A stretch of DNA of 40,576 bases from Opitutaceae bacterium (GTDB lineage Bacteria; Verrucomicrobiota; Verrucomicrobiia; Opitutales; Opitutaceae): NCBI GenBank assembly GCA_030693515.1, contig JAUYAK010000035.1, forward strand, positions 1 through 40,576. Reading direction: 5' to 3'. The number at the start of each line of letters is the position of its first letter. Position 1 is the first letter of the stretch. The notes beneath the pieces were generated by a model. It had not been told where the DNA came from and searched no databases. It saw nothing but the letters and a program-made list of their open reading frames with translations. Of this stretch, positions 18,579 through 40,576 are shown piece by piece. A program made the position numbers and the translations under genes.

Positions 18579-18590
18579 TGCGCTCCTGCC

Positions 18591-21919: not shown

Positions 21920-22552
21920 TTACGCCGCGGCGCACCAGCCCTTGGCGCCGGGGCGCCGGGTGGCGGTCATCTCGCCAATCCAGGTGCGGAGAAACGGCCG
22001 CACGCGGTGCAGGCGGACCTTCACGCTCGCGAGGGAGAGGCCGGCGCGCTCGGCGATCACGCCGTAGCTGTCGCCTGCGACGAATTGCGAGACGAGCGAA
22101 CGATCAACCGGATTCAGGCGCGTCAACGCGCGGTCGAGGGCGGCGTAAATTTCCGCCGTGGCGTTGTGGCTCGAAGGATCGGGGATGCGGTAGATGGCGT
22201 CGTCGAGCGCGACCGTGGCGGGCCGGCACTGGCGGCGGCGCAGAAAATCGAGCCCGGCGTTGCGCGCCAGCGTGAAGAGCCACGACTCGAACACCGCCGG
22301 ATCGCGCAGGCGGCTCAGGCGCCGAAACATCTTGATGAAGACCGTCTGCGTCACGTCCTCCACCGCATCGGGCTGGCGGATGATGGTGCGGACGAAGCCC
22401 GCGACGCGGCGCGTGTAGCGCCGCACGAGCTCGGACTGCGCCTCGGGCTCTTCGGCCTCGGCGCGGCGCACGAGGGCGATCAGCTCGGCTTTATCGTCTT
22501 CGGCGGGAGTGGTGGTGCGGGCGGGGAGAAAATCGGCGTGGGGGTGAATCAT
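21920..22552 (-). CDS. ECF-type RNA polymerase sigma factor
   Basis: This 210-residue sigma-70 family protein has the ECF layout. Region 2 (about residues 30-100) reads ELVRRYTRRVAGFVRTIIRQ, PDAVEDVTQTVFIKMFRRL and FESWLFTLARNAGLDFLRRR. A short linker is followed by region 4 (RALTRLNPVDRSLVSQFVAG, YGVIAERAGLSLASVKVRLH) with the helix-turn-helix. No anti-sigma gene is adjacent. Two EF-hand genes follow on the same strand, and all three share an upstream TACAC...AACAATTC element, so this factor may control itself and them. The start at 22552 matches the motif distance (53 bases). Confidence 0.92.
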   Translation of the reverse strand: MIHPHADFLPARTTTPAEDDKAELIALVRRAEAEEPEAQSELVRRYTRRVAGFVRTIIRQPDAVEDVTQTVFIKMFRRLSRLRDPAVFESWLFTLARNAGLDFLRRRQCRPATVALDDAIYRIPDPSSHNATAEIYAALDRALTRLNPVDRSLVSQFVAGDSYGVIAERAGLSLASVKVRLHRVRPFLRTWIGEMTATRRPGAKGWCAAA

Positions 22553-22604
22553 GAGGCCCCCACTACACCCGAAGCGTGTTTCGGAATCGTTTCGACCGGC
22601 GGCG

Positions 22605-22623
22605 GAATTGTTAAGGGCGTGTA
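22605..22623 (-). promoter_or_regulatory. Shared upstream motif before the sigma factor gene
   Basis: The minus strand reads TACACGCCCTTAACAATTC, matching the elements before both EF-hand genes at identical internal spacing. It lies 53 bases from the sigma start codon. The 32-base-spaced second AACAAT box is not clearly kept here. It suggests an autoregulated ECF promoter. Confidence 0.55.
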
Positions 22624-22639
22624 AAGGCCCGGGGCTGTT

Positions 22640-24535: not shown

Positions 24536-25632
24536 TTCGGATCGCGGAGGTAGATGTTGACCTGTCCGCCATCGGCCGGGAGCAGGGTCTTGGCCTTCAT
24601 GCGGGGGAGAATCTGTTCGAGGGTCTCGGCGCGGAGGCGGGCCTCGACGAGCGCGGGCGCGGCGCGGTATTCGGCGAGGAGCGCGAGGAACGAGGCGGAT
24701 TCGCCGCGCGCGCGGGCGACGATTTCGCGGGCTTCGGCGCCGGCTTGCTGGCGGATGCGAAAGGCGTCGCTGCTCGCGCGCGGCGCCGTCTGCGCCCGGT
24801 AGGTGCGCGCCTGCTCGAGCGTGGTGCGGGCCTCGACCTGTGCGCTCGTCACATCGGCGAAGGCCGTGGCCGTGGCCTGCGGGGGCGTGAGCGCGTTGAC
24901 TTCGAACGCCACGAGATCGAGGCCGAGACGCAGGGCTTCCAGCCGCCGCTGCGCGGCCTCATGCACGCGGGTGCGCACGCTCTCGAGCCCCGAGCCGAGG
25001 GCGTCGTCGATCCGGGTGTGCGCGAGCACGCGGGTGGCGGCGTCCATGAGGGCGGCCTCGATGAGGGCGTCGCGCGCCGCGGGCTGCGCGGCGGCGAGGT
25101 AGGCGAAAGGATCGGTGATGCGGTAGCGCGCGGTGAGCCGCGCCTGCACGATGTTGGTGTCACCGGTGAGCGTGTAGCCGTCGGTCACGGGGTGGAGGCC
25201 GCGGCCCATGGGTGGCGGCGTGGCGGCGAGCCCGGCGTTGCCCGGGGGCATCACGGCGAGGAGCGAGGCGGGAATCTGCGGCGGGGCGGCCACCGCGGGT
25301 GGCAGGGCGGCGGTCTCCTCGGGCGCCCAGGCATGGAGCAGCACCTCGTGCTGCGTGCGCGTGGGGATCTTGACGACACGATCGAGCGGGGGCGGGAGCG
25401 CGAAGCACAGGCCGGGCGGGTGTAGTTCGCGCTGGAGGCGGCCGAGGCGGTAGATCACCGCGTCTTCGTTGGGGGCAACGCGCGTGATGCCGGAGCCAAG
25501 GTAGAGCGCGACGAGGCCGAACATCAGCCAGCGCAGCAGCCGGATCGTGGCGGCGAGGGCGCCGAACAGCGCCTGGCCGGAGCTGACGCCGTCGGCGCGG
25601 CGGCGGGAGGAGAGCGGAGCGTCGTCGCTCAT
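24532..25632 (-). CDS. SPFH-domain protein, HflK-like
   Basis: This 366-residue protein has a cytoplasmic N-terminus, one transmembrane helix (about residues 33-50, LLRWLMFGLVALYLGSGI), then an SPFH/prohibitin domain starting ITRVAPNEDAVIYRLGRLQR. It continues TDGYTLTGDTNIVQARLTAR, YRITDPFAYL, and RLGLDLVAFEVNALTPP. A long helical coiled-coil region (residues ~255-325) follows, ending in VNIYLRDPK. The order matches HflK; in E. coli HflK and HflC form a ring around the FtsH protease. A proline/alanine-rich insert (residues ~105-140) is unusual. It overlaps the next gene by four bases on both sides, so it is translationally coupled to HflC and the ATPase. No ftsH is present. Confidence 0.85.
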   Translation of the reverse strand: MSDDAPLSSRRRADGVSSGQALFGALAATIRLLRWLMFGLVALYLGSGITRVAPNEDAVIYRLGRLQRELHPPGLCFALPPPLDRVVKIPTRTQHEVLLHAWAPEETAALPPAVAAPPQIPASLLAVMPPGNAGLAATPPPMGRGLHPVTDGYTLTGDTNIVQARLTARYRITDPFAYLAAAQPAARDALIEAALMDAATRVLAHTRIDDALGSGLESVRTRVHEAAQRRLEALRLGLDLVAFEVNALTPPQATATAFADVTSAQVEARTTLEQARTYRAQTAPRASSDAFRIRQQAGAEAREIVARARGESASFLALLAEYRAAPALVEARLRAETLEQILPRMKAKTLLPADGGQVNIYLRDPK

Positions 25633-26528
25633 CGGTTCGCCGGCGCGGCCGGCTTGAGCTGGTGGAACGGCGCGGTGTCCGTGTCCAAGATGAGCGTGGT
25701 GTTGTCGCGCGTCACTTTGCGCAACGTCTCGAGCTCGCGGAGGAAGGTGTAGAACTTCGGGTCCTGGGTGTGGGCCTCGGCGTAGATGCGCGCGGCGTCG
25801 GCCTCGGCCTGGCCGCGGGTTTCCTCGGCGAACTTCTGCGCCTCGGCGACGAGCACGGTGCGTTCGGCGTCGGTGCGGGCGCGGAGTTCCTCGGCTTCGC
25901 GGCGGCCTTCGGCGCGGAACTTGGCGGCGAACTGGCCGCGCTCGGCCTTCATCCGCTCAAAGACGTAGAGCGTGTTGGCCTCGGGCAGCGCGATGCGCTT
26001 CAGGCCGACCTGCTCGATCCCGATGCCGAAGGCCGCGAGCGCCTGCGGGCGGATGGCGGCGGCGAGCCGCGATTCGAACTCGGCGAGTTTGAGTTTCGCC
26101 GGATCGGTCGAGACGAGCTCCGCGAAATCGTAGCGGCCGAGCAGGGCGTTGCGCGCGCTGGTGGCGAGGCTGTCGAGCTTGGCGGGCGCGGCGGCCGGCG
26201 CGCCGAGGGCCTGGAGAAACTTCAGCGGATCGGTGACGCGCCAGGCGAGGAAGACGGGGAGGATGATGTTGCGCTTGTCCTGCGTGAGCGCCTCGGAGAG
26301 CCGGGTGTCGTGGAACGCGAGCCGCGTGTCGAAGCGATGCACGGTGTCCACGGGCCAGGGCCATTTGAAGTAGAGGCCGGGTTCGCCGAGGGTGCGCACC
26401 GGCGAGCCGAAGCGCGTGAGCACCGCGGACTCGTTGCTCGCGACCTGAAAGCTGCACATCGCGCAGCCGAGCACCGCGGCGACGACCGCGGCGATGAGCG
26501 CGCGGGTGAGGAATTGAAACGAGGACAT
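25629..26528 (-). CDS. SPFH-domain protein, HflC-like
   Basis: This 299-residue protein has one N-terminal helix (FLTRALIAAVVAAVLGCAMC) and an SPFH domain: FQVASNESAVLTRFGSPVRT, GEPGLYFKWPWPVDTVHRFD, TRLAFHDTR and NIILPVFLAWRVTDPLKFL. A charged helix (RREAEELRARTDAERTVLVA, AQKFAEETRGQAEADAARIY) follows, then the FYTFLRELETLRKV segment. The GLYFKWPWPVDTV stretch and RVTDPLKF are typical of HflC. Its partner is probably the HflK-like protein 4 bases further on. It lies 30 bases after the larger SPFH gene. Confidence 0.9.
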   Translation of the reverse strand: MSSFQFLTRALIAAVVAAVLGCAMCSFQVASNESAVLTRFGSPVRTLGEPGLYFKWPWPVDTVHRFDTRLAFHDTRLSEALTQDKRNIILPVFLAWRVTDPLKFLQALGAPAAAPAKLDSLATSARNALLGRYDFAELVSTDPAKLKLAEFESRLAAAIRPQALAAFGIGIEQVGLKRIALPEANTLYVFERMKAERGQFAAKFRAEGRREAEELRARTDAERTVLVAEAQKFAEETRGQAEADAARIYAEAHTQDPKFYTFLRELETLRKVTRDNTTLILDTDTAPFHQLKPAAPANR

Positions 26529-26558
26529 GCGGAAAGGCGTTGGTTTTTTCGATGGGGC

Positions 26559-28244
26559 TCAGCGGGCCGGAGCGGGCATCGGCGGGGACGTCCCGTCGAG
26601 GCCTTGGTAGAAATTCACGCGCGAGCGGGCGCCGTGCGGGACGAGGATGAGCTGGCGCACCTCGGCGAGGGTGGCTTCGAGGGCCTCGAGCCGGCGGCGC
26701 GTCATGAAAGCTTCCGGCTGCTCGCGATAGGCGGCGAGCGGGGCGAGGAAGCGCGCGGCCTCGCCGCCGGCCCGGGCGCGGCGCTCGGTGGCGGCGGTCT
26801 CGGCCGAGAGGCGGATCTGCGCGGCGCTCATCTGCGCGGCGACGCCCGCCTGCACGGCGTAGGTGCGCGCGAGATCGACGAGCGCGGCACGCTGCTCCTC
26901 GGCGCTGATCACATCCTGGTAGGCGGGCGCGACGGCCACGGGCGGGTGCACATCCTTGAGGCCGACAAACACGATCTCCAGGCCGAGGCCGAGGCGGTCG
27001 CTCGCGGCCTGGAGTTCGGCGTGGATCTGGTCGGTGATTGCGCCGCGGTCGGTGACCATGAGCCCAAAGGCGCTGTGCGTGGTGGTGACCGTGAGCAGCG
27101 CGCGGTAGCCGAGCGCTTCGAGCGCGGCGCGCGCATCGCCTGCGTGCCGGAGGTAGGCGACGGCGTCGCGCACGCGGTAGTGCACGGGCACGTTGATGGT
27201 GAGGAGTTCCTCGCCCTGGCCGACGAGCAGGTTCTGCTCGCCTTCAAAGTGTTTCTCGGTCCACAGCACCGGTCCCGCGAGATCGCGCTCAAAACCGAGC
27301 GACACCTCCTGCACCCGCTCCGTGGGCACCACGACCACGCGGCCCCAGGGCCATGGCGCGTGAAAATGCAACCCCGGCGGCAAGGTGTCGGGCGCGAAGG
27401 CCCCGCTCCGCACCAGCACGCCGCGGCTCTCCACCGGCACGCGCGTGACGGCCGTCGAGGCCCACAGGCCGAGCGCGCCAAGCAGCGCGAGCGGCGCGGC
27501 AAGCAGGCGCGTGAGCTGCACGAGCCAGGTGTCGGCGAGCTTCACGCCAAACGTCCGCTCGATCGTCGCGGCGAGCGAGCGCAGCGGGCCGCTCTCGCCG
27601 AAGAGCGCGGGCAGCAGCACGCTGGCGGCGAGCACCGGGCCCTCCGCGCGCAGGCGCGCCGGCTGGTAGAGCCGGGCGATGGCGCGCAGGGCGGCTTCGG
27701 CGGCGAGCACGGCCGTCGCAAAATTCAAAGCGGCGCCGACCGCGGGGAGGGCGTTGTGCCGCGTGTAGAGGCGGAGCAGGAGCGCCGCGAGCAGCAGCGC
27801 GTGCGCCGCCGCGAGCAGGCGGGAAAAAGGCACGAGCGCCGCGATCCCGGCCGCCGGCGTGGCGCGCGTGATGTGCGCGCCGAAGGTGCCGAGGAAATGA
27901 AAGGCAAACGCGAGCACCGCCAGCGCCACCGCGGCGAGCTGCAGCTGCGCGGTCGTCGCCCCCGCCGTGACCGCGGGCGACCGCAGGTGAAACCACAGGG
28001 GCAGGCCCAGCGCCGCGATGGGGCCCAGCACGCAGAAGATCCCGCGCAGCCGCCACGGCAGGCGCGGGAGCGACGACGCCGCGACCGCGACGAACGCCCA
28101 CGCCGCGAGCCCGCCGAGCGCGGCGAAGGCCGCGAGTCCCGTGCGCAGCGCGAGCAGATCCGCCGCGGCGGTCGCGACCGCCAGGGCGGCGGCGAGCGCG
28201 ATCACGGGACCGCGGGGCGGGGAGGGGGAGTCGGGGCTGGGCAT
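26559..28244 (-). CDS. Large SPFH protein with an N-terminal multi-helix membrane domain
   Basis: This 561-residue protein joins about five or six hydrophobic helices (residues ~12-175, for example AAWAFVAVAASSLPRLPW and LAAVALAVLAFAFHFLGTF), with another near residue 255, to an SPFH domain (ESRGVLVRSGAFAPDTLPPG, LHFHAPWPWGRVVVVPTERV, LTINVPVHYRVRDAVAYL). A coiled coil follows (YQDVISAEEQRAALVDLART, AQIRLSAETAATERRARAGG). SPFH proteins usually have one membrane helix, so this domain is atypical. It is the first gene of the four-gene operon and its product may scaffold the other SPFH proteins around the ATPase; that role is inference. Confidence 0.8.
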   Translation of the reverse strand: MPSPDSPSPPRGPVIALAAALAVATAAADLLALRTGLAAFAALGGLAAWAFVAVAASSLPRLPWRLRGIFCVLGPIAALGLPLWFHLRSPAVTAGATTAQLQLAAVALAVLAFAFHFLGTFGAHITRATPAAGIAALVPFSRLLAAAHALLLAALLLRLYTRHNALPAVGAALNFATAVLAAEAALRAIARLYQPARLRAEGPVLAASVLLPALFGESGPLRSLAATIERTFGVKLADTWLVQLTRLLAAPLALLGALGLWASTAVTRVPVESRGVLVRSGAFAPDTLPPGLHFHAPWPWGRVVVVPTERVQEVSLGFERDLAGPVLWTEKHFEGEQNLLVGQGEELLTINVPVHYRVRDAVAYLRHAGDARAALEALGYRALLTVTTTHSAFGLMVTDRGAITDQIHAELQAASDRLGLGLEIVFVGLKDVHPPVAVAPAYQDVISAEEQRAALVDLARTYAVQAGVAAQMSAAQIRLSAETAATERRARAGGEAARFLAPLAAYREQPEAFMTRRRLEALEATLAEVRQLILVPHGARSRVNFYQGLDGTSPPMPAPAR

Positions 28245-28324
28245 GGCGGCGGCCGCAGGAATCTGGGCCGCCCCTTATGTGCGGGGCTTTGCGCCGCGCA
28301 TCAAATGCGTTTCCGCCGAATCGA

Positions 28325-29005
28325 TCACTTCTTCTTTTTCTTGGTCGCGGCGGGGCTGGTCTTGGGATCGACCACGATGTCCTTGGTGGCGAGCCAGGCG
28401 GCGGCGCCGGATGAGTCGGTGCCGCGCTGGGGCGCGATGACGGTGGCCTCGAGCGCGGCGCCCGAGAGGCTGCGCTGCACCCCGTCGCTCGCGAAGGTCG
28501 CGCGCTCGTCGTCGAAGGTGAACTGTGAGGTCAGCACCGTGGCATCGCCGATCTTCACATGGAAGTGGAAGTGCCGGATGCGGCCCGTGTAGAGGCCCGG
28601 CTTGATCGTGCGGAAGGAGTAGCGGCCATCCGCGCCGGTCACGCTCTCGCCGTAGAACTGAAAATGGGGGTCGCGCTTGGCGGCGTTGCGGTCTCCGGAG
28701 TGATAATAGACGCCGGCTGCGTCGGTGTGCCAGATCTCGACCTTGGCGCCCGCGAGCGGCGCGCCGGTGAGATCGCGGACGACACCGGAGAGGAGAAACG
28801 GCATCCCCTGGGTCGCTTCCTTGGCGCCAGCAAGCCGCGTGAGATCGTTGTCGCGGTTGGCGGCGGGGATGGGCGGGAGGGTGTTGGTGGAGTTGAAGGG
28901 ATAGAACGGACCTTCGGTGACTTCGGGCGTGCGCACGGGCGCGGCCGGCAGGGTCGAGGCGAACGCGAGGGCGGCGATCAGGAGGCGGGCGGGATGAGTT
29001 TTCAT
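28325..29005 (-). CDS. Secreted intradiol ring-cleavage dioxygenase-like protein
   Basis: This 226-residue protein has a probable signal peptide (MKTHPARLLIAALAFASTLP) and a fold like protocatechuate 3,4-dioxygenase. Landmarks are TPEVTEGPFYPFN, PFLLSGVVRDLTGAPLAGAK, VEIWHTDAAGVYYHSGD, and GLYTGRIRHFHFHVKIG. The Tyr of GVYYHSG, the Tyr of GLYTGR and the two His of RHFHFH match the four ferric-iron ligands. The substrate is unknown. It ends in a lysine tail (TKKKKK). ATG 29005 is preferred to 29062 because the signal peptide starts there. It lies 58 bases downstream of the histidine kinase gene. Confidence 0.85.
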   Translation of the reverse strand: MKTHPARLLIAALAFASTLPAAPVRTPEVTEGPFYPFNSTNTLPPIPAANRDNDLTRLAGAKEATQGMPFLLSGVVRDLTGAPLAGAKVEIWHTDAAGVYYHSGDRNAAKRDPHFQFYGESVTGADGRYSFRTIKPGLYTGRIRHFHFHVKIGDATVLTSQFTFDDERATFASDGVQRSLSGAALEATVIAPQRGTDSSGAAAWLATKDIVVDPKTSPAATKKKKK

Positions 29006-29063
29006 GGGGACGGGGAAAGCGGTGCGAAGCTGCGCGAGGAGCGGGCTCGTTGCACGTCGCAAA

Positions 29064-30683
29064 TCAGGCGGCCGCGAGGCGAATCTCGGCGCGGAAGCCC
29101 CGCGGCACGCGGTTCGAGAACCGCACCTCGCCGCCGCACGCGGCGACGCTGCTGCGCACGATCGCGAGGCCGAGGCCGACGCCGCCGCCTTCGCGCGTGC
29201 GCGCCAGCTCGGGCCGGAAGAAGGGCTCGCCCAGCCGATCCAGATCCGTGGCGGGCACGCCGGGGCCCTCGTCCTCCACCGCCAGCACGATGCGGGTGCC
29301 GTCGCGGGTGGCGGAGAGGGTGACCGGGCCGGCGTCTCCGGCGTAGCGGAGGGCGTTGCGGACGAGATTGCCGAGGGCGCGGCCGAGCAGATCGGCGTCC
29401 GCCTGCGCGCGCAGGCCGGCGGGCACCGCCAGCACCACGCGATCCGCGGCGTCCTCTCGGGCGAGCGCCGTCTGGACGAGCGGATCGAGCTCCGTGGGGG
29501 CGAGGACGATCTCGCGGGGTTGCAGGCCGGCCTTGGTGAAGGCGAGCAGCTCGTTCACGAGCGTGCTCATCTGCTGCACCTCGTCGCGGAGATCGGCGAC
29601 CGTCTCCTGCATCGCGGCGGGAGCCTGATCGGCGAGGATGCCGGCGGCCATTTGCAGGCGAGCGAGCGGCGAGCACAGCTCGTGGGCGACGTCGCCGAGG
29701 AAGCGTTTCTGGCCGTTCATGTGTGCGTCGAGCCGGATGGCCATGCGGTCGACGGAGTCGCCGAGGCGGCCGAGTTCGTCGCGCCGGTGGCTGTTGACGC
29801 GGGTGTCGAAGCGGCCTTCGGCGATGCGCTCGGTCGCGACGGTGAGCTGGCTCACCGAGCGGGTGATGCTGCGCACCAGGGGGAGCCAGAACAGCACCGA
29901 GGCGATCAGCACGACGCCTCCGCCCAGCAGCCAGGATTGCACGCCGAGAAGATTGAGCAGGCCCCAGAACGAACCCACGTGGGCCACCATCTTGGCCGGG
30001 ATCGGGCGGTTGCCGCGCTCCGGGTGGGTGGCCGGCACGCGCAGCCCGACCCAGTAGCCGGAAGGCGCTGCGGTGCGGACGACGAAGCGTCCCGCGAGTC
30101 GATCCGGAGAGGGTGGGGTGAAGCCGGGCGGCGGACCGCCGCCCTCGCCGCCGCGGCGTGCGCCTTCGGAGCCGAAGCGGCTGCGCTCGCCCGGGGTCGC
30201 CGGATCGCGGGGCGAGCTCCCCTCGCCAGCTTCGCGGGCGGCCTTTTCCGCCGCATCGCGTTTCCGGGTGGAATCCGAGTCCCCTTCCGGACCCCGGCGT
30301 CGCGGCGGCGGACCGCCAAAAAATCCCCAGCCCGGTCCGCGAAAATCCAGGCGCTCCTGCACGGCGGGCGGCAGCGGGGACGCGCCACTGGTCGCGAGTC
30401 GGGTCTCGTCAAAGGCATAGAGGGCAAACTCGGCGTCGTAGGCCTCGGCGAAGCGCTTCAGCACCGCATCGCGCGCCGGCCCCTGCGCCGCCGAGACTTC
30501 ACCGGCAATCACGTTGAACAGCACCTGCGCCCGGTCGCCGGTCGGGCCCGCGACGAGCGCGCTCCAGCCGAGCCCGCCTTGCACGACGACAAAGCCGATC
30601 ACGAGCGCGGCGAGCAGCAGCAGGTTGAGCACGAGCCACAGCGAGACCTTCAGCGAAAGCGGGTAGGAGACCTTCATCGGCAC
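29064..30683 (-). CDS. Sensor histidine kinase, CpxA-like
   Basis: This 539-residue two-helix histidine kinase has its first helix at about residues 12-36, a periplasmic domain at about 37-245, a second helix (WLLGGGVVLIASVLFWLPLV), HAMP, then the catalytic core. The phospho-acceptor His is H334 in DVAHELCSPLARLQ. The N box is LLGRALGNLVRNALRYA, G1 is VEDEGPGVP and G2 is GGGVGLGLAIVRSS. The H-box wording resembles CpxA-type kinases. The periplasmic domain holds a low-complexity charged/proline insert at about residues 122-190. Start codons at 30683 and 30677 are both possible. Its partner regulator is not adjacent; the OmpR-family gene at 38375-39106 is a candidate only. Confidence 0.88.
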   Translation of the reverse strand: MPMKVSYPLSLKVSLWLVLNLLLLAALVIGFVVVQGGLGWSALVAGPTGDRAQVLFNVIAGEVSAAQGPARDAVLKRFAEAYDAEFALYAFDETRLATSGASPLPPAVQERLDFRGPGWGFFGGPPPRRRGPEGDSDSTRKRDAAEKAAREAGEGSSPRDPATPGERSRFGSEGARRGGEGGGPPPGFTPPSPDRLAGRFVVRTAAPSGYWVGLRVPATHPERGNRPIPAKMVAHVGSFWGLLNLLGVQSWLLGGGVVLIASVLFWLPLVRSITRSVSQLTVATERIAEGRFDTRVNSHRRDELGRLGDSVDRMAIRLDAHMNGQKRFLGDVAHELCSPLARLQMAAGILADQAPAAMQETVADLRDEVQQMSTLVNELLAFTKAGLQPREIVLAPTELDPLVQTALAREDAADRVVLAVPAGLRAQADADLLGRALGNLVRNALRYAGDAGPVTLSATRDGTRIVLAVEDEGPGVPATDLDRLGEPFFRPELARTREGGGVGLGLAIVRSSVAACGGEVRFSNRVPRGFRAEIRLAAA

Positions 30684-30817
30684 GGGGTGAGACGCAGGCC
30701 ATCCATCGGAGTTAGCCGGGTGGTCCGCAACGTTTACCTCCGCTTAATAATAAGTCTGCCTCATCCACACATGCGCTTAACCGGCTGATGGTTTTATCTG
30801 TCCGCATCCCCCATCAT

Positions 30818-33133
30818 ATGAAAAACGTCCATCGACTCACGGCACTTTTCATGGTCTCCGCCGCGGCGGCCACGCTCGCCGCCCAGACCGATCCGCGCAT
30901 CACGAGCTGGCTCGTCTCGCCCTCCCGCCAATACGCCCGCATCTATGAAAGCGACGCGGCAAAAAACGCCGGCACCGCCGTCACCACCTGGAGCCGCGCC
31001 CAAGGCGTGCAGTCCGTGCCGAGCTACGCCGGCGTGATGCAGGTCTCCTATTCCGACAACTGGGTTTACCTCCGCTCGTCGGGACTCGGCTACCACGTGA
31101 TGGGGCCGTGGTATCTCGACGCCGCGCACACGCGAAATTTCCCAAATTTCCCCGCCAACAACAACGTCCTCTACCGCATCCCGCGGAGCCCGACTGTGCC
31201 GGCGACAAAGACCTCCACCCGCGCCGGGGCGATCGGCTACTTCGTGGATGGCGTGGCGATGTTCGACTACACGGACACCTTCTCCTACTCGACGGCTGGC
31301 GGGGCCGATGCCCAGCCCGTCAACACGCTGCGCGGTGACGGCATCTGGAACCGCGACGCCTATGTGAACGAAGGCGTGACCTTCGACGCCGCCTTCGCGC
31401 ACCAAGCCGGCAGCAACTACCATTACCATGCCACCACGCCGGCGCTGCGCCACCTGCTCGGCGACCACGTGGATTACAACGCGAGCACCAAGACCTACGC
31501 CGAGAGCCCGGCCACCGTCACGCGCCACTCGCCGATTCTCGCCTGGGCCTCGGACGGCTATCCGGTTTACGGACCCTACGGCTACTCGTCGCCGCTGGTC
31601 GCGACGAGCGCCGTGCGGCGCATGATTTCCGGCTACGTGAAGCGCGACGGCGCCAACGGCACGACGAACCTCGCGGCCACGGGCCGCACCACGCTCCCGG
31701 CCTGGGCGACGCGGGCGCAAAACCGCGCCGCGACTCTCGCGCCCACCCAATACGGCCCGGCTATCGGCACCGCCAACTACACGCTCGGCCACTACCTCGA
31801 GGACTACGACTACCTCGGCGATCTCGGGAAGACGCAGGGGGCGGATTTCGACTTGGACGTTTACAACGGCCGCTTCTGCGTGACGCCTGAATTCCCCAAC
31901 GGGACCTACGCCTACTTCATTTCCATCGAGCCCGACGGGCTGCCCAAGTTTCCCTACATCATCGGCCGCTGGTTCTACGGTAGTCCGACGGGCGCCGCCG
32001 TCACCGCCATCAGCGAGACCGTCGCCGAATACGTGCGCGGCGGCCAGGCCTCCGCGATCGCGGTCACCGCCGTGCTGGTGAACGGCAGCGTGGTCCTGAG
32101 CTGGAGCTCCGTCGAGGGCGGCACCTACTCGGTCGCCACGTCGAGCGACGGCACGAACTTCACGACGCTCGCGAATGCCGTGACGAGCGCCGGGCTTACC
32201 ACGACCTCCACGTCCGCGACCGTCGCCCACACTTTCAAAGTCACGCTCACCGCGGTCGCAACCTACGACACCCGGGGCACCGGCGGCCTCAGTGGCCTCG
32301 GCAACAACGCCACCGCCACCGTCGGCGCGAGCGGCACCGCCCGTCTCGTGAACATCGCCACGCGCGCGCAAATCGGCGGCACCGCGGGCACGCCCATCGC
32401 GGGCTTCGTGATCGCGGGCAGCGGGACGAAGCCGATGCTCGTCCGCGCCGTCGGCCCCGGGCTCACGAGTTTCGGCGTCACCGGCGCCCTGGCTGATCCC
32501 AGCCTCTCGCTCGTCTCTGGGACCTCGACGATCGCGACCAACGACAACTGGCTCGCGGCCGATGCCGGCACGTTTGCCGCGGTCGGCGCCTTCGCCTTTA
32601 CGGTGGGCAGCAGGGACGCGGCCCTCGTCTCGCCGCTCGCGACCGGCGCCTACTCCACGCCGGTCGGCGCCGGGGGCGGCAGCGGGGTCACGCTGCTGGA
32701 AGTTTACGATGCCGACTCGGCCGCGACGCCGACGGCGCAGCTCATCAACGCCAGCACCCGCGCCTTCGTCGGCACGGGCGAGAGCGTGCTCATCCCCGGC
32801 TTCGTGATCAGCGGCACAGGTTCCGTGAAGCTTCTCATCCGCGCCGCCGGGCCCGCCCTCACGCCCCTCGGGGTGACGGGCGCGCTCGCCGATCCGCAGA
32901 TCACGCTCTACTCCGGCGCCGCCGCGATTGCATCGAACGACAACTGGTCGAGCGCCAGCAACGCCGCCGAGATCGCCGCGACGGCCACGAGCGTGGGCGC
33001 CTTCGCCTTTGGCGCGGGCAGCCGGGATGCCGCGCTGCTCGTCACGCTTTCGGCCGGGGCCTATACCGCGAGCATCAGCGGCGTCGGCGGCACCACCGGC
33101 ACCGCCCTCATGGAAATCTACGTCGCGCAATGA
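30818..33133 (+). CDS. Secreted YHYH-domain protein with two C-terminal surface repeats
   Basis: This 771-residue protein starts with a probable signal peptide (MKNVHRLTALFMVSAAAATL). Its main domain has the YHYH motif in SNYHYHATTPALRHLLGDHV near residue 205, with SPILAWASDGYPVYGPYGYS and LPKFPYIIGRWFYGSPTG, matching the YHYH domain family of unknown function. The last ~260 residues are two copies of the repeat seen in the 18591-20438 protein (RLVNIATRAQIGG, LIRAAGPALTPLGVTGALAD, NDNW, final ALMEIYV). Its stop overlaps the sulfatase start by four bases, so the two are made together. ATG 30818 is chosen for the signal peptide. A ~135-base AT-richer stretch separates it from the divergent kinase gene. 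Confidence 0.87.
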   Translation: MKNVHRLTALFMVSAAAATLAAQTDPRITSWLVSPSRQYARIYESDAAKNAGTAVTTWSRAQGVQSVPSYAGVMQVSYSDNWVYLRSSGLGYHVMGPWYLDAAHTRNFPNFPANNNVLYRIPRSPTVPATKTSTRAGAIGYFVDGVAMFDYTDTFSYSTAGGADAQPVNTLRGDGIWNRDAYVNEGVTFDAAFAHQAGSNYHYHATTPALRHLLGDHVDYNASTKTYAESPATVTRHSPILAWASDGYPVYGPYGYSSPLVATSAVRRMISGYVKRDGANGTTNLAATGRTTLPAWATRAQNRAATLAPTQYGPAIGTANYTLGHYLEDYDYLGDLGKTQGADFDLDVYNGRFCVTPEFPNGTYAYFISIEPDGLPKFPYIIGRWFYGSPTGAAVTAISETVAEYVRGGQASAIAVTAVLVNGSVVLSWSSVEGGTYSVATSSDGTNFTTLANAVTSAGLTTTSTSATVAHTFKVTLTAVATYDTRGTGGLSGLGNNATATVGASGTARLVNIATRAQIGGTAGTPIAGFVIAGSGTKPMLVRAVGPGLTSFGVTGALADPSLSLVSGTSTIATNDNWLAADAGTFAAVGAFAFTVGSRDAALVSPLATGAYSTPVGAGGGSGVTLLEVYDADSAATPTAQLINASTRAFVGTGESVLIPGFVISGTGSVKLLIRAAGPALTPLGVTGALADPQITLYSGAAAIASNDNWSSASNAAEIAATATSVGAFAFGAGSRDAALLVTLSAGAYTASISGVGGTTGTALMEIYVAQ

Positions 33134-35211
33134 ATCGACTCCCCCGTCTGTTCCTCGCGCTCGGACTTGTCGCCGGTTTGGCCCGCTTCGCCTCCGCGGC
33201 TTCGCCGCCGAACGTCCTTCTGATCGTCGCCGACGACCAGGGTTGGGGCGACGTGCCGTGGCGGGGCAGTCCCGCGCGGATGCCGAACCTCGATCAGCTC
33301 CGGCAAAGCGGCACGGAGCTGCTGCGTTTCTACGCCAGCCCGGTGTGCAGCCCCACGCGCGCTTCGTTGTTCACGGGTCGCTCCGCCGTGCAACTGGGCA
33401 TCCGCGATCAGTTCGCCCCGAACAATGACGGGCTTTCGCTGCTCGAGCACCTGATGCCGGAGAGCTTCCGTGCGGCCGGCTACCAGACGGCGCTGATCGG
33501 CAAATGGCATCTCGGCTCCACGACCGCGGAACGCCGCCCGCTCGCCCGCGGCTTCGATCGCTTCTACGGTTTTCTCGGGCCCGCGATCGATTACTACACG
33601 CATCTTTTCACCGGACCCGCCGGCGGTCTCGACTGGCAGCGCGACGGTGTGACGCTCAACGAACCCGGCTACGCCACGGATCTCATCGCCGCGGAGGCGG
33701 TCCGTCTCCTCCGCACGCGCGATCCGGCGAAGCCGTTTCTCCACGTCGTCACCTTCAACGCGCCGCACACGCCCTACGCTGCGCCGGAGGAGCTTAAGGC
33801 CAACTACCCGATGCTCTCCGGCGATGCCCAGACTTACGCGGCGATGCTCGAGAGTCTCGATAACGGCCTCGGCCGCATCCTCGCCGAACTCGCCGCTCAG
33901 GGCCTCGCCCACGACACGCTCGTCGTCTTTGTCTCCGACAACGGCGGCACCGGCCCCGGTCGCAACACGCCCCTGCGCCTCAACAAGGGCAACATCTACG
34001 ACGGCGGCATCCGCGTCCCCGCTCTCATCCGCTGGCCCGGTGTCGTCCGCGCCGGAGCGACGAGCGACCAGTTCGTGACCGCGCAGGATATTTTTCCCAC
34101 GATCGCCGCCGCCACAGGGATGACGCCGCGCAACGGCCTGCCGTTCGACGGACTGAACCTCTGGACCACGCTCCGCACCGGCGCGCCCACGGTCGAGCGG
34201 ACGTTTGCGATGGCGACGACCGTGAACTATGCCCAGTTCGAAGGCCGCATGAAGCTGGTCCGCATCGGCGCGCGGGACGAACTTTACGACATCGTCGCCG
34301 ATCCCTCCGAGACCACGAATCTCGCGGCCGCGCAGCCCGCCGTGCTGGCGCGGCTGCAAACCACGCTCGCCGGCACGCTCGTCCGCTCGCTCGGTCCGGA
34401 GACCCACGGCGATGCGCGCGTGACCAATCTGTCCGTGCGGGCGGCCGTCGGCGGGACGGCAGGCACGCCCATCCTCGGCTTCGTCGTCACGGTCGGGGAG
34501 AAGCGCCTGGTCGTGCGCGCGGCCGGCCCGGCGCTGGCGGGGTTTGGCGTGGCGGGTGCGCTGGCTGATCCGCTCCTCGAGCTGCGGCAGGGCCAAACCC
34601 TCGTCCAAGCCAACGACAACTGGTCCGCGATCGATGCCGCTGCGATGGCGGCGGTGGGCGCGTTTGCGCTGCCGGCGGCCAGCAAGGATGCGGCGCTCGT
34701 GGTGACGTTGCCGCCCGCCCCTTACACGGCGCAAACCTCCTCGATAGTTGCTGGCGGCACCGGCGTCGCCCTCGTGGAGATTTACGACACCGGCGCTGGC
34801 GCCACGACCGCGCGTCTCGTCAATGCCTCGGCCCGTGCCTTCGTCGGCACGGGCGCCTCGATCCTGATTCCGGGTATCGTCGTCGGTGGGGACGGTGCGG
34901 CGGGCCTGCTGATTCGCGCGGCCGGCCCCGCGCTGGGGAAATTCGGCGTGGCCGACACCCTCGCCGATCCGGTGATTTCACTTTATCGCGGCAGCAGCCT
35001 AGTCGCGACCAACGACGACTGGGGCGCCGCCGCGAATGCCGCCCAGATTACAAGCAGCGCCGCCGCCGCCGGGGCCTTCGCGTTCGACAACGGCAGCCGC
35101 GACGCCGCGCTGCTCACCACCCTGCCCGGCGGCACGAGCTACTCCGTGCAGGTGAGCGGAAAAAACAACACGACGGGCACCGTGCTTGTGGAATTCTACC
35201 TCGTGCCGTGA
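33130..35211 (+). CDS. Secreted arylsulfatase with two C-terminal surface repeats
   Basis: This 693-residue family S1 sulfatase has a signal peptide (MNRLPRLFLALGLVAGLARF). Landmarks are PNVLLIVADDQGWGDVPW (metal-binding Asp pair), SPVCSPTRASLFTGR, where Cys of C-S-P-T-R would be converted to formylglycine, GKWHLGS, and VSDNGGTGPGRNTPLRLNKG. It probably cleaves sulfate esters from polysaccharides outside the cytoplasm; the substrate is unknown. Residues ~430-693 are two copies of the shared surface repeat (NLSVRAAVGGTAGTPILGF, LIRAAGPALGKFGVADTLAD, final VLVEFYLVP). The ATG overlaps the YHYH stop. The last 58 bases recur at 37476-37533. No sulfatase-maturation gene is nearby. Confidence 0.92.
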   Translation: MNRLPRLFLALGLVAGLARFASAASPPNVLLIVADDQGWGDVPWRGSPARMPNLDQLRQSGTELLRFYASPVCSPTRASLFTGRSAVQLGIRDQFAPNNDGLSLLEHLMPESFRAAGYQTALIGKWHLGSTTAERRPLARGFDRFYGFLGPAIDYYTHLFTGPAGGLDWQRDGVTLNEPGYATDLIAAEAVRLLRTRDPAKPFLHVVTFNAPHTPYAAPEELKANYPMLSGDAQTYAAMLESLDNGLGRILAELAAQGLAHDTLVVFVSDNGGTGPGRNTPLRLNKGNIYDGGIRVPALIRWPGVVRAGATSDQFVTAQDIFPTIAAATGMTPRNGLPFDGLNLWTTLRTGAPTVERTFAMATTVNYAQFEGRMKLVRIGARDELYDIVADPSETTNLAAAQPAVLARLQTTLAGTLVRSLGPETHGDARVTNLSVRAAVGGTAGTPILGFVVTVGEKRLVVRAAGPALAGFGVAGALADPLLELRQGQTLVQANDNWSAIDAAAMAAVGAFALPAASKDAALVVTLPPAPYTAQTSSIVAGGTGVALVEIYDTGAGATTARLVNASARAFVGTGASILIPGIVVGGDGAAGLLIRAAGPALGKFGVADTLADPVISLYRGSSLVATNDDWGAAANAAQITSSAAAAGAFAFDNGSRDAALLTTLPGGTSYSVQVSGKNNTTGTVLVEFYLVP

Positions 35212-35221
35212 CGGGCGCGGA

Positions 35222-36251
35222 TCACTTGTAGGCCACACCCGCGCTGGCCGGACCGGCCAGGGGAATCACCTCGGTGCGGCTGAAGCCGGCCTCTTTGCAC
35301 CACCGGCCAAAGTCGGCGCCGGTGAAGTCGAAGGCCTCGCCAAATTCAATCAACATGTTGAGCGACATCATCAGGCCAAAGGCGTTTTCGCGGCGCGCGT
35401 CGTCGATCAGGTTTTCGACGACAATGAAGGCGCCGCCTTTCGGGAGCGCGTTGTAGGCCGCGCGGATGAGGTGCATTTTTTTTCTCCAGATTCCAGTCGT
35501 GGAGAATCAGGCCCATCGTAATCACGTCGGCCTTGGGCAGCGGTTCCGCAAAGAAGTCGAGCGGCCGCGCGGTCACGCGGTCGGCGAGCCCCGCCGCGGC
35601 GATCTTGCGCTCGGCGATTTTCACAACCTCCGGCAGATCGGTCGTGGTGCAGTGCAGGTGCGGGTGCCGCTGGGCGACCAGCAGGGAAAGCAGGCCGACC
35701 GAGCCGCCGACGTCGCAAAGCGTCTGGTAGCGCGAGAAGTCGAACTTGTCCGCCAGCGCCTGAAAATTCCCGTGGGAGATACCGCTCATGGCGGCGCAAA
35801 ACTGCTCGAGGCGCGCGGGACTGCTGTAGAGTTCCTCGAACATGGACTTCCCGGAGTGCTTGAGCTCGTTCTGCGGCTGGCCGGTGCGCAGGGCCTCGTT
35901 GAGGTCGCCCCAGAACGGGTAGAGCCGCGCGCCGGCCATTTCGAGAAAGCCGCCGAGGAACGCCGGGCTCTTACGATCGAGAAAGGCGGCCGTCTCTTCG
36001 GTGTTGCGGTAGCGGGACGCGGGGCCGTCGCCTTCGCGGGCGAGAAAGCGCAGCGCCACGAGCGTGTCGAAAAAGTCCGGGTTGGCGCGCACGTGGAGGC
36101 CGAGGGCGCGTTGCAGTTCGTCACCGGTCAGAGCGCGGTCGCCGAGTTCGGTGAAGACGCCGAGCTCGACGGCGGAGAGGAGGACGCGGGCCGGCCAGAA
36201 GGCCATGCCGGTTTCCATGATGCGGGCGGGGGAGAGGGCGGAGGCGGTCAT
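35222..36251 (-). pseudogene. Class I O-methyltransferase-like gene with a frameshift at an A8 run
   Basis: Two frames together encode one ~340-residue methyltransferase. The first (ATG 36251) gives an N-terminal dimerisation region (MAFWPARVLLSAVELGVFTE) and the SAM-binding core ([51 protein letters not shown]), as in acetylserotonin or hydroxyneurosporene-type O-methyltransferases. At 35476-35483 the coding strand has eight As where seven would keep the frame (LEKK then [20 protein letters not shown]). Beyond it the second frame continues to a normal end ([17 protein letters not shown]). It is either a real lesion or a homopolymer error; the rest is well kept, which favours a recent or artificial change. 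Confidence 0.8.
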
Positions 36252-36413
36252 TGGAGTGATAGAATTCCGAGGGCTGCGGGGCTGGGTGGGAAGGTTTCGC
36301 CTCCGGGTTGTCGCATGAAACAACGAAACAGAGCCTCACGGGGATAAGGACCCCAATCAGCAACGGGCAACGGGCCGGCTTGTTTTGGGGGCCGCCCCGG
36401 CACCGTCCGGCGA

Positions 36414-37361
36414 TTATTGGATCGGAATGCGCGCCTTGTTGGCGGCGAGCCAGGTGTCGAAGTTTTGCAGTGCAGGATTAAGCGCGCGGGAGAGATCGAG
36501 CGGGCGCGCCGCGCAGAAGTCCGCCTCAAAGTCGTGCTTGTATTGAAACATATTGCCGAGGTCGTCAGCGCCCGGGAAGCCGAGTTTGCGATAGTCGTCG
36601 AAGGGCATCGCGTAAAACGCGACCGGCTGGCCAAGCGCCTTGCCCAGCGAGGCCGCCATCTGCGCGCCGGTGGGATGCTCGCCCGCGACGCCGATGGATT
36701 TGCCAATGTAGTTGTCGCCGGCCTTGAACACGCCGTAAGCGCAGCGGCCAATGTCCTCGGCCGCGATGCCGGGCAACTTCTTGCCACCCATCGGGAGAGC
36801 GAACACCAGCTTGCCGTCGGCGCCCTTCCGCGGGCCCATGCCGAAGTGGATGAGGTTTTCCCAATAGAACGAGGTGTGGAACAGCGTCGTCGGCACGCCC
36901 GCCTTGGCGAACTCGGCGTTGGCCTCGCCCTTGCCGTCGAAATGCGGCACCTTGTAGTTGCCGTGCAGCGTGGGCATGCGCGGGTCGGAAAGGGGGATTT
37001 TTTTTCGCGTGTCCTCGAGCGTGGACCATACGACGTGCTTCAGGCCGGTGGCCTTCGCCGCGCGGGCCATCGCGGCGACCTCGGCCATTTCCTTTTCGGC
37101 CGAGAAGTGCGCCCAGAAAAATGTGACGCAATACGCACCGTAGGCGCCGGTAAACGCGCGCACGAGGCTGGCCTCATCGTCCACATCGCCCGCGACGACC
37201 TCCGCGCCGAGCGCGGCGAGGGCTTTGGCCTTGTCCGATTTGGGATCACGGACGATGGCGCGCGCGGCGAAGCCGCCTTTCGGATCGTTGAGGATGGCGC
37301 GGACGAGTCCGCCGCCTTGGGCGCCGGTGGCGCCGAGAACTGCGATGATTTTTTTGCTCAT
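36414..37361 (-). CDS. NmrA/HSCARG-like NAD(P)-binding protein
   Basis: This 315-residue atypical short-chain dehydrogenase is of the NmrA type. The N-terminal Rossmann loop reads VLGATGAQGGGLVRAIL, followed by ARAIVRDPKSDKAKALAALG, VVAGDVDDEASLVRAFTGAY and VWSTLEDT where a catalytic Ser-Tyr-Lys would be expected. The usual YxxxK is not clear, as in NmrA-like regulators that sense NADP rather than reduce substrates. The C-terminal part includes GKSIGVAGEHPTGAQMAASL. It lies ~160 bases upstream of the methyltransferase on the same strand, possibly cotranscribed. It is bracketed by the 58-base duplicated sequence. Confidence 0.87.
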   Translation of the reverse strand: MSKKIIAVLGATGAQGGGLVRAILNDPKGGFAARAIVRDPKSDKAKALAALGAEVVAGDVDDEASLVRAFTGAYGAYCVTFFWAHFSAEKEMAEVAAMARAAKATGLKHVVWSTLEDTRKKIPLSDPRMPTLHGNYKVPHFDGKGEANAEFAKAGVPTTLFHTSFYWENLIHFGMGPRKGADGKLVFALPMGGKKLPGIAAEDIGRCAYGVFKAGDNYIGKSIGVAGEHPTGAQMAASLGKALGQPVAFYAMPFDDYRKLGFPGADDLGNMFQYKHDFEADFCAARPLDLSRALNPALQNFDTWLAANKARIPIQ

Positions 37362-37475
37362 GGAGGTGGGGATGAAGGGGCGGTGAATTGAATGGTCCGA
37401 TGCTTTGCGCTTGGGCTCGCTGATACTTTTGGCAGGTGCGGCGGCCGCGGTCGGGGCGAGTTAACCTGTGTCGGA

Positions 37476-37533
37476 GAGCGGAAAAAACAACACCACAGGC
37501 ACCGTGCTCGTGGAATTCTGCCTCGTGCCGTGA
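37476..37533 (+). repeat. 58-base copy of the sulfatase gene's 3' end
   Basis: This sequence matches 35154-35211 (last codons and stop of the sulfatase) at 54 of 58 bases, ending with the same TGA. No homology extends upstream. Both copies lie on the plus strand, so the methyltransferase and NmrA genes sit between direct repeats ~2.3 kb apart. It is a gene fragment left by duplication or a decayed second repeat-bearing gene. Confidence 0.8.
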
Positions 37534-37570
37534 ACCGCGAGGCAGCGTGGGGCGCGATGCGCCCCGTCTT

Positions 37571-38167
37571 TTAGCGCGCGGCCCGGAACATCCGGCTGAT
37601 CACCGGTGAACTGCCGGCCTGAATCTCGCCGATGATTTCATAGCCGAAGCGCTGGTAGAACGGTATGTTCGTGGGATTTGACGTTTCAAGATAGGCGGCC
37701 ACGTGGGCCCGATCGCAGACCTCCAGGCCCCGGGCGAGCAACGCGGAGCCGTAGCCCTGGCCCTGCCGCCGCGAATCGACGCCGATGGCGGGCAGATACC
37801 AGTGGGTCTCGTCCGGGTGCCCGGCGCCGACTTGCTCGAGCACGCCGAAGGCCTCGCCGTGCCGCTCGCTGTCCACCCCCTGCGCCATCACGGCCCCCAG
37901 CGCCTGCTCATCCGGACCCACGCCCGGCGGGAGCCAGAGCGCGGCCCCGGCAAAGTCCGCGGACCGGTAGGCCGAGCCGTGTTCAAAGCCCCGCCCGGCG
38001 AAATGCTTCAGCACCTGCGGGGCGAAAGTCAGATACTGCAGCGCGTCGGGAAACAGCCAGCGAAGGACCGGATCGGAGGCGAACGCAGTCGTGAGCGCGG
38101 CCGTCATCCGATCCCGGTCGTCGAGCGTGGCGCACAGGACTGAACGAGCGGTGGGCGGGGTTGTCAT
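37571..38167 (-). CDS. GNAT family N-acetyltransferase
   Basis: This 198-residue protein has the GNAT acetyl-CoA-binding segment near residues 125-160: THWYLPAIGVDSRRQGQGYG, SALLARGLEVC, then YLETSNPTNIPFYQRFGYEI. This is the arrangement of puromycin acetyltransferase-like members. The N-terminal part (ATLDDRDRMTAALTTAFASD, PVLRWLFPD) also fits. The substrate is unknown. ATG 38167 is preferred to 38239 because the fold starts there. It is preceded on its own strand by the response regulator gene. Confidence 0.85.
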   Translation of the reverse strand: MTTPPTARSVLCATLDDRDRMTAALTTAFASDPVLRWLFPDALQYLTFAPQVLKHFAGRGFEHGSAYRSADFAGAALWLPPGVGPDEQALGAVMAQGVDSERHGEAFGVLEQVGAGHPDETHWYLPAIGVDSRRQGQGYGSALLARGLEVCDRAHVAAYLETSNPTNIPFYQRFGYEIIGEIQAGSSPVISRMFRAAR

Positions 38168-38337
38168 GGAGCGAAGGGGTGCGGGGCGCAGTTGGGGGGA
38201 GTGAAGCGGGGAGCCCTGAAGACGTTGAGGCTGGTGCAACTGCGCACTCCCTCACCCGTGGTTTTGAAATTGGGCGCGTTTATCCTGCTGGCAAGTTTGG
38301 TTTCGGCGGCTGCGGGAGGAAGCCATGCCCAACGGTT

Positions 38338-38358
38338 CGGCCCGGGGCAATCGGGCCG
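38338..38358 (-). terminator. GC hairpin after the response regulator gene
   Basis: CGGCCCG and CGGGCCG form a 7-base stem with a 7-base loop, 17 bases past the regulator stop on the minus strand. No T-run follows, so termination activity is uncertain. Confidence 0.35.
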
Positions 38359-38374
38359 CGCTCCGGGGCCGCGT

Positions 38375-39106
38375 TCACTCCGGCCCGACCATCATGTAAC
38401 CCGCCGAGCGCACAGTGCGTATATACTTGGGCTCCTTGGCGTCATCGCCCAATTTTTTTCGCAGCGAGGAAATATGCACGTCGATCGATCGATCAAACAC
38501 GTCGTAGTTGCGGTCGCGGCACTCGTCGAGGAGGGCCTCGCGCGATTTCACGCGGCCCTTGGCCTTGGCGAGGCTCGCCAGCAAATCGAACTCCACCGGC
38601 GTGAGCACGAGGGGCGCGGTGTCCATCACCGCGGAGCGGGCGTCGAGGTTCACGCGCAGCGCGCCCACCACGAGTTCGGTGGGCGGCTTCTCCGCGGCAC
38701 CCGTGGCGGTCGCGGTCGCGACGCTGCGACGCAGCACGGCGCGCAGCCGGGCGAGCAGCTCGCGCGTGGAAAAAGTCTTCGGCAGGTAGTCGTCGGCGCC
38801 GACCTCGAGGCCGACGATGCGGTCGACGTCCTCGACCTTGGCCGTCAGCATGATGATGGGGGTGGCGTCGTTGGTGGCGCGCAGCCGGCGGCAGATCGAC
38901 AAGCCATCCTCGCCCGGCATCATCAGGTCGAGCACGATGAGGTCGATGCTCTCGCGCGCCAGCAGCCGGCTCAAGGCCTTGCCGTCCTCGGCCAGCAGGA
39001 CGTCGAAGCCTTCCTGCGACAGGTAGCGCCGCAGCAGGTCGCGGATGCGGGCGTCGTCGTCGACGACGACGATGCGATCGACTTTGGTGGTGGCAGCGAC
39101 GTTCAT
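38375..39106 (-). CDS. OmpR-family response regulator, apparently chimeric
   Basis: This 243-residue two-domain regulator has a receiver with acidic pocket VVDDDAR, phospho-Asp D60 in IVLDLMMPG, and K110 in DDYLPK. A winged-helix DNA-binding domain follows (LTPVEFDLLASLAKAKGRVK, FDRSIDVHISSLRKKLGDD, YIRTVRSAGYMM). The receiver up to residue ~110 (MNVAATTKVDRIVVVDDDAR, RDLLRRYLSQEGFDVLLAED, GLSICRRLRATND) looks like OmpR of Burkholderiales. From TFSTRELLARLRAVLRRS onward it looks like CpxR-type regulators of the main organism, with PKTFSTREL where betaproteobacterial OmpR would have PKPFNPREL. The change falls in a motif common to both. ATG 39106 gives the OmpR-type N-terminus. The lineage assignments are from memory and need alignment. 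Confidence 0.75.
   Translation of the reverse strand: MNVAATTKVDRIVVVDDDARIRDLLRRYLSQEGFDVLLAEDGKALSRLLARESIDLIVLDLMMPGEDGLSICRRLRATNDATPIIMLTAKVEDVDRIVGLEVGADDYLPKTFSTRELLARLRAVLRRSVATATATGAAEKPPTELVVGALRVNLDARSAVMDTAPLVLTPVEFDLLASLAKAKGRVKSREALLDECRDRNYDVFDRSIDVHISSLRKKLGDDAKEPKYIRTVRSAGYMMVGPE
38777..38836. other. Probable chimera junction
   Basis: These bases encode about residues 91-110 of the regulator (VEDVDRIVGLEVGADDYLPK), a stretch nearly identical across OmpR/CpxR regulators. Everything right of it resembles a betaproteobacterium and everything left resembles Opitutaceae. A homology-driven join here, by assembly or by recombination, would leave the reading frame intact, as seen. 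The exact breakpoint cannot be placed within the shared stretch. Confidence 0.65.
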
Positions 39107-39289
39107 CGGCGACTCCAAAGATGTAACAGGCGCATTGTGGACGCCCAAGCCCGGTGTAAACCCCAGGGTTCGACCTTCTGTTACAAGTCTTGCGGGTAAT
39201 CGGCGGCCGTTGTCGTCCACCCGTGAACCCTGTCACACACTGAGGGGCCATGGCGCTGTCGCCACGGCCTCGTCACCACAAGGAATGCC

Positions 39290-39994
39290 ATGTCTGCACG
39301 CCCACTGCTCTTGATCCTGCTGACCTGGCTGCCGATGGCGGCGGCGCTGGCGCAGCCCGCGGCCGCGCCGCAGAACGTCGTCAACCTGTCGGCCAGCGCG
39401 GTGGTCGAGGTCGACAGGGACTGGATGAGCGTCACCTTCAGCACCCGCCGTGACGGCGCTGACGCCGGCCTGGTGCAGCGCCAGCTCAAGCAGGCGCTGG
39501 ACGCGGCGCTGACCGAAGCCCGCGCCGCCGCCCGACCCGGCCAGCTCGAGGTGCAGACCGGCCAGTTCTCGCTGCAGCCGCGCTACACGCCGCAGGGCGC
39601 TGCGATCGCCGGCTGGCAGGGCACGGCCGAGTTGCTGGTGCAGGGGCGCGACAGCCAGGCCATCGCCCAGCTCAGCGCCCGCATTCAGACGCTGACGATC
39701 GCGCGCGTTGCGTACTCGGTGTCGCGCGAGGCGCGCGACAAGGTCGACGGCGAGGTCAGCGCGATGGCCGTCGCCGCCTTTCGCGCCAAGGCCGATCGCG
39801 CAGCGCAGCAGTTCGGCTTCAGTGGCTGGACGCTGCGCGAAGTGCAACTCGGCGGTCAGGAGCCGAATCCGGTCCATTCACAGCCGATGCGGGCCCAGCT
39901 CAGCCGCGGTGGCGTCGAAGAAGCCTTGCCGGTCGAAGCCGGCAAGGCGCTGGTGACGGCGGTCGTCAGCGGCAGCGTGCAGCTGCAACGCTGA
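39290..39994 (+). CDS. SIMPL-domain (DUF541) periplasmic protein, betaproteobacterial type
   Basis: This 234-residue protein has signal peptide MSARPLLLILLTWLPMAAAL ending near AQPA. The SIMPL domain covers most of the rest: VVNLSASAVVEVDRDWMSVT, LVQRQLKQALDAALTEARAA, QFSLQPRYTPQGAAIAGWQG, ELLVQGRDSQAIAQLSARI, and AVAAFRAKADRAAQQFGFSG. Such proteins are periplasmic or outer-membrane associated with no settled function. It is divergent from the regulator and convergent, with a 9-base gap, with the dehydrogenase gene. The wording is typical of Burkholderiales, which supports a foreign origin of this end of the window. Confidence 0.88.
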   Translation: MSARPLLLILLTWLPMAAALAQPAAAPQNVVNLSASAVVEVDRDWMSVTFSTRRDGADAGLVQRQLKQALDAALTEARAAARPGQLEVQTGQFSLQPRYTPQGAAIAGWQGTAELLVQGRDSQAIAQLSARIQTLTIARVAYSVSREARDKVDGEVSAMAVAAFRAKADRAAQQFGFSGWTLREVQLGGQEPNPVHSQPMRAQLSRGGVEEALPVEAGKALVTAVVSGSVQLQR

Positions 39995-40003
39995 GGCGCG
40001 CCC

Positions 40004-40576
40004 TCACTGGGCGACCCAGCCGCCGTCGACGTTCCAGGCTACGCCGCGCACGTTGTCGGCCGCCGGCGAGCACAGGAACAAGGCCAGCTCGGCCAGTTGC
40101 TCGGGGGTCGTGAACTGCAGCGAAGGCTGCTTCTCGGCCAGCAGCCGGCGCTGGGCTTCGGCGTCGTCGACACCGTCGGCGGCGGCGCGGGCGTCGACCT
40201 GCTTTTGCACCAGCGGCGTCAGCACCCAGCCGGGGCAGATGGCGTTGACCGTGATGCCGGTGGTGGCGCATTCCAATGCGGCCGTCTTCGTCAGGCCGAT
40301 GATGCCGTGCTTGGCCGCCACATAGGCGCTCTTGTTGGCCGACGCCACCAGGCCGTGGGTGGAGGCGATGTTCAGCACCCGGCCCCAGCCGCGCTGCTTC
40401 ATGCCCGGCAGCGCCAGCCGCATGGTGTGGAAGGCCGACGTGAGGTTGATGGCGAGGATGGCATCCCAGCGCTCGACCGGGAAGTCGTCGATCGGCGCCA
40501 CATGCTGGATGCCGGCGTTGTTGACGAGGATGTCGACGCCGCCGAAGCGCGCTTCGCAGGCCTGCATCATGGCCTC
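40004..40576 (-). CDS. 3-hydroxybutyrate dehydrogenase, N-terminus cut by window edge
   Basis: This short-chain dehydrogenase fragment has 190 residues and runs off the right edge, missing the Rossmann glycine loop. It keeps VDILVNNAGIQHVAPIDDFP, GRVLNIASTHGLVASANKSA with the catalytic Ser, YVAAKHGIIGLTKTAALEC with the Tyr-Lys pair, and NAICPGWVLTPLVQKQVDAR. The GIQHVAP and STHGLVAS wording is that of D-3-hydroxybutyrate dehydrogenase (hbdH/bdhA), which turns 3-hydroxybutyrate to acetoacetate in polyhydroxybutyrate use, as in many betaproteobacteria. The C-terminus AWNVDGGWVAQ is complete. Confidence 0.92.
   Translation of the reverse strand, partial: EAMMQACEARFGGVDILVNNAGIQHVAPIDDFPVERWDAILAINLTSAFHTMRLALPGMKQRGWGRVLNIASTHGLVASANKSAYVAAKHGIIGLTKTAALECATTGITVNAICPGWVLTPLVQKQVDARAAADGVDDAEAQRRLLAEKQPSLQFTTPEQLAELALFLCSPAADNVRGVAWNVDGGWVAQ

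Follow-up and report, generated by a model that had tools for sequence, protein, structure and literature searches.

The right end of this contig (C16) is almost certainly chimeric, two bacteria having been joined at the contig end by misassembly. Its last 1.8 kb looks like the DNA of an unrelated beta-proteobacterium, and there is strong support for regarding the hybrid response regulator that is encoded across the join as an artefact, not a new protein. The window, by which we mean the whole stretch of DNA that was analysed, is the entire contig C16 of 40,576 bases; it comes from a genome (G000) of 6.65 Mb in 130 contigs that is reported to be 100% complete and 1.1% contaminated. The features on which the argument draws are as follows.

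15499 to 35206, no strand assigned: native part, collinear with contig C23 of genome G018 (single alignment of 19,852 columns, 87.8% nucleotide identity).
38375 to 39106, minus strand: regulator gene, 243 aa, with the Pfam domains Response_reg (PF00072) at 12-121 and Trans_reg_C (PF00486) at 165-239, above cut-off.
38375 to 38776, minus strand: DNA-binding half of the regulator (residues 111-243 plus stop), native to the window's genus; 96% amino acid identity to G018, with 358/396 nt identical to G018.
38781 to 38825, minus strand: interval of the lineage switch, which codes for DRIVGLEVGADDYLP, the shared word; exact matches to both sides.
38826 to 39106, minus strand: receiver part of the regulator, foreign (Caldimonas-like); 85% amino acid identity to Caldimonas over residues 8-110.
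39290 to 39994, plus strand: SIMPL (DUF541) protein, foreign; Pfam PF04402, 53% amino acid identity to the Caldimonas neighbour.
40004 to 40576, minus strand: foreign 3-hydroxybutyrate dehydrogenase, truncated at its 5' end where the contig stops; NCBIfam NF009093 above cut-off, 78% amino acid identity to the Caldimonas neighbour.

For comparison of the two halves, the regulator was cut at residue 110/111 and each part was run by tblastn against the collected loci. For residues 1-110, identity is 85% to Caldimonas manganoxidans (L033) and 77% to two other betaproteobacterial loci (L034 and L035), as against 41.6-49% to 22 same-genus relatives and 46% to the copy on contig C59 of the window's own genome. 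For residues 111-243, it is 96% to G018 and 94% to G016, both of the same genus, 76.7-90% to the remaining 20 same-genus relatives, 81% to the C59 copy and 41% to Caldimonas. The preliminary description of this DNA had proposed that two lineages are joined inside a single response-regulator gene, and had suggested searching the halves separately. The proposal is borne out by the N part at 85% to Caldimonas and the C part at 96% to G018: in the sets searched, no single species' regulator is the best match for both, and the best full-length matches (75% in the same genus, 61% in Caldimonas) are each carried by one half.

Both the receiver and the Trans_reg_C domains of an OmpR/PhoB response regulator (PF00072, PF00486) are present in the composite sequence, the family label being based on these Pfam domains together with NCBIfam hits below their cut-offs. 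As in other OmpR/PhoB-type response regulators, each half has the domains of the family and matches intact regulators of its own lineage; unlike them, the full-length protein of the window is a composite of two such genes.

The change of lineage is accompanied by a change in composition. The segment 38837-40576 scores +36.3 on a strand-symmetric 5-mer Markov classifier, for which 194 kb of the own genome outside the window and 168 kb from the donor family served as training sets. This score is reached by none of 109 held-out own-genome pieces (mean -37.5, maximum -13.1), and the 127 overlapping 900-nt windows to the left of the join average -41.4, with a maximum of -9.6. Held-out donor-family pieces (n = 91) have a mean of 34.2 and a minimum of -51.9, 48 of them lying at or below the score of the segment. 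The left/right difference that had been anticipated takes the form of a flip at the join, within the scan resolution of ~300 bases, and the segment stands well above the own-genome maximum. Together, the half-by-half identities and this flip place an abrupt change of lineage inside C16.

In the DNA alignment, the best partner changes at the codons for DRIVGLEVG. An exact match of 62 nt to the donor-family locus L072 corresponds to window positions 38842-38781, and exact matches of 39, 44 and 68 nt to the same-genus loci L025, L030 and L011 start at 38825, 38818 and 38800, respectively. These exact matches on both sides confine the switch to 38781-38825, inside the VDRIVGLEVGADDYLPK stretch that is common to both lineages, which is where the preliminary description had put it. 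Natural regulators of the donor family and of the same genus have exact words of 39, 38 and 33 nt in common at the switch site. Among 330 donor-family/same-genus locus pairs, at least 31 nt are shared in 4 and at least 25 nt in 7, with fewer than 25 nt in the other 323; the shared word is here measured between relatives of the two sources, the actual donor not being among the genomes searched. Accordingly, the identical sequence of up to 39 nt at the join refers to relatives only, and what the window itself provides is a match to both sides over 38781-38825.

Common sequence of this length, up to about 40 nt, could seed recombination as well. The regulator could then be a real, functional hybrid, formed when betaproteobacterial DNA entered by homologous recombination in the conserved stretch and placed a foreign receiver in front of the native DNA-binding domain. 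In keeping with this, the hybrid retains an open frame and both domains, although an open frame is expected also when a join falls at a homologous word. The evidence from the foreign block and from the neighbouring contigs, however, makes a real hybrid very improbable.

The preliminary description had read the receiver half, the SIMPL protein and the 3-hydroxybutyrate dehydrogenase as foreign, and this agrees with the identities given above and with gene order: in the Caldimonas locus, the regulator (minus), SIMPL (plus) and dehydrogenase (minus) genes have the same order and orientation as in the window. Three donor-side loci were recovered, which by the titles of their records are from Caldimonas manganoxidans, a Betaproteobacteria MAG and a Hydrogenophaga MAG. 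Of 399 sampled Caldimonas-family genomes, 394 match the 1,716-nt foreign query somewhere (E <= 0.001), and among the matches listed, for which one or two candidates were scored in each genome, seven align over nearly the full 1,716 nt at 69-73%. The donor species was not found among these 399 genomes, the best near-full-length match listed being at 73% nucleotide identity. Conversely, the native half of the regulator has no match at 1e-30 in 299 donor-family genomes, in a search that had no positive control and scored one or two candidates per genome among the matches listed. When 14 kb of the relative L113 served as query, no further long pieces of the donor neighbourhood were found in the own genome, the longest other match being 227 nt.

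The window being all of C16, its edge is a true contig end, and the foreign DNA reaches it with no return to native sequence, as had been expected of a contig-end chimera. C16 thus ends within the foreign DNA, native DNA is seen on one flank of the segment, and a second boundary, if there is one, would lie beyond the contig end. Against a real hybrid regulator, then, stands the continuation of the foreign part to the contig end without a native return, and so does the SIMPL gene, which was not found in any of the 26 other same-genus genomes.

The native half of the regulator matches the regulator that lies beside the region of G018 contig C23 aligned with 15499-35206, and the far side of that G018 regulator is found on C59, in pieces that are separated by unmatched stretches and have 88% identity in the two longest and 79-96% in the shorter ones; in the wider-locus comparison, five pieces give 79-94%. 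C59, too, has its end in the regulator gene, and the two contigs have a similar divergence from G018 (88% for the two longest pieces of C59, 87.8% for C16). In 6/6 same-genus relatives for which the wider locus was compared, these being the six best-scoring of the 22 with a hit, the gene is bordered by C59-like sequence at one end and by C16-like sequence at the opposite end; thus, C59 and C16 should meet inside one gene. The native sequence that should follow on C16 is therefore located on a second contig, whose end falls in this gene too. However, each of C16 and C59 has its own copy of the regulator and then runs into other sequence: at E <= 1e-60, the own genome has two copies, one per contig end, where the 22 other same-genus genomes that gave a hit have a single copy apiece (none in G002 and G021).

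The regulator copy on C59 also appears to be mosaic, although this is less firm, and the switch is less sharp than on C16. Its receiver half is 97-99% identical at the amino acid level to G018, G016 and G001, and its other half is 79.5-81.8% identical to the same three genomes and at most 84.1% identical to any of the 22 relatives. DNA identity to G018 drops from 244/267 (91%) to 308/402 (77%); as BLAST gives a single unbroken alignment of G018 across the C59 regulator, it is on this drop from 91% to 77% that the switch rests. Beyond the regulator, C59 has the start of a TonB-receptor-like gene (labelled by reading) that reaches the contig end. The source of C59:1-1265 was not found among the 26 other same-genus genomes, none of which has a single match over the regulator half plus the TonB-like gene; this stretch (L009) has a composition score of -68 and is not betaproteobacterial. 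Judging from its sequence, this end was probably misassembled too, with material from a closer relative.

For a real hybrid regulator, the difficulty is that the native upstream partner of C16 lies on C59, where the contig likewise ends in this gene and the copy seems to change character at about the same place. A real hybrid would then need either two separate events at a single point, or reciprocal crossover with a second locus that was already hybrid. Additionally, none of the single copies in the 22 same-genus relatives that gave a regulator hit (0/22) has the foreign receiver, so the same junction was not seen in an independent genome of this set. A true inter-phylum domain swap, in which a native regulon was rewired to a foreign kinase signal and the matching rearrangement is visible on C59, we hold to be no more probable than the real hybrid. 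Since C16 finds its native continuation on C59, itself with a mosaic-looking end, assembly error is favoured over recombination, a preference that the preliminary description had already expressed.

Another reading is that the whole of C16 comes from a different organism and was mis-binned. The right 1.8 kb is indeed foreign to the host lineage, but binning cannot produce a switch within one gene, and the left part of C16 is about as far from G018 (87.8%) as are the long pieces of C59 (88%), both being collinear with one and the same contig of G018. As C16 and the long pieces of C59 diverge alike from G018, we rejected mis-binning of the whole contig, which we consider slightly less probable still than a real hybrid.

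The native part of C16 has some features of its own. On C16, ~3 kb (about 35.2-38.3 kb) separate the sulfatase from the regulator, which in G018 are immediate neighbours. Positions 35211-38375 contain O-methyltransferase, NmrA-like and GNAT genes, a ~3 kb insertion relative to G018, and 37457-37536 repeats the last codons of the sulfatase (82.5% to L051:300-221), as if a copied gene tail marks the insertion. Within 30788-35211, the ~265 residues at the end of a YHYH protein and those at the end of the sulfatase form related modules, 55-59% identical between one gene and relatives of the other, with more matches of 42-44% at L051:16023-16856. At 29064-30683, there is a sensor-kinase-like protein (labelled by reading and similarity) that is 27-30% similar to a kinase-like ORF beside the Caldimonas regulator; it is found in the same conserved cluster in six relatives, and is a candidate for the native partner of the regulator.

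Misassembly at the right end of C16 most probably came about as follows, starting from what is directly established, namely the mosaic on C16 and its position, the word shared by natural relatives, and the adjacency of C59-like and C16-like sequence in six relatives. The real regulator gene of the organism would begin on C59 and end on C16. In mid-gene, regulators from different organisms can agree exactly over a conserved word of about 40 nt, and a word of such length, when common to regulators in one sample, would act as a branching node for a graph assembler. At that node, C16 would have left the native path for the betaproteobacterial regulator-SIMPL-dehydrogenase locus, while C59 would have been extended into another regulator, that of a closer relative, plus the TonB-receptor-like gene. 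We infer that the join was made by a graph assembler from the short reads of a mixed sample.

In the relevant passages of the GUNC paper (PMC8201837), the computational errors of metagenome-assembled genomes are traced chiefly to misassembly, in the form of chimeric contigs, and to mis-binning. Those passages also term misassemblies relatively rare, and report that contamination is underestimated by CheckM in simulated genomes with non-redundant contamination (PMC8201837). Like the chimeric contigs considered there, C16 has fragments of different sources in one contig and a foreign extension that the marker-gene figure hardly shows; unlike in those passages, the join is here placed to ~45 nt inside one gene, and the counterpart end, C59, is identified. 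Several points count against misassembly: the contamination of 1.1%, the rarity of misassemblies, the donor-family pieces scoring down to -51.9, the 323 of 330 locus pairs with fewer than 25 nt in common, and the starts of 20 other contigs. None of these 20, out of 130 contigs and taken at their starts only, looks betaproteobacterial; thus, there is no sign of a general assembly failure.

The finding has little biological interest in itself and matters locally, as a question of data quality. Conserved words in receiver domains can yield in-frame chimeras that resemble real fusions, and synteny with relatives can expose such chimeras without reads. We suggest that 38781-40576 should be masked, that the hybrid regulator should not be annotated, and that the first ~1.3 kb of C59 should be treated as doubtful. 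Otherwise, the last 1.8 kb of C16, perhaps together with the first 1.3 kb of C59, would give rise to a spurious hybrid regulator and would wrongly put SIMPL on record for the genus.
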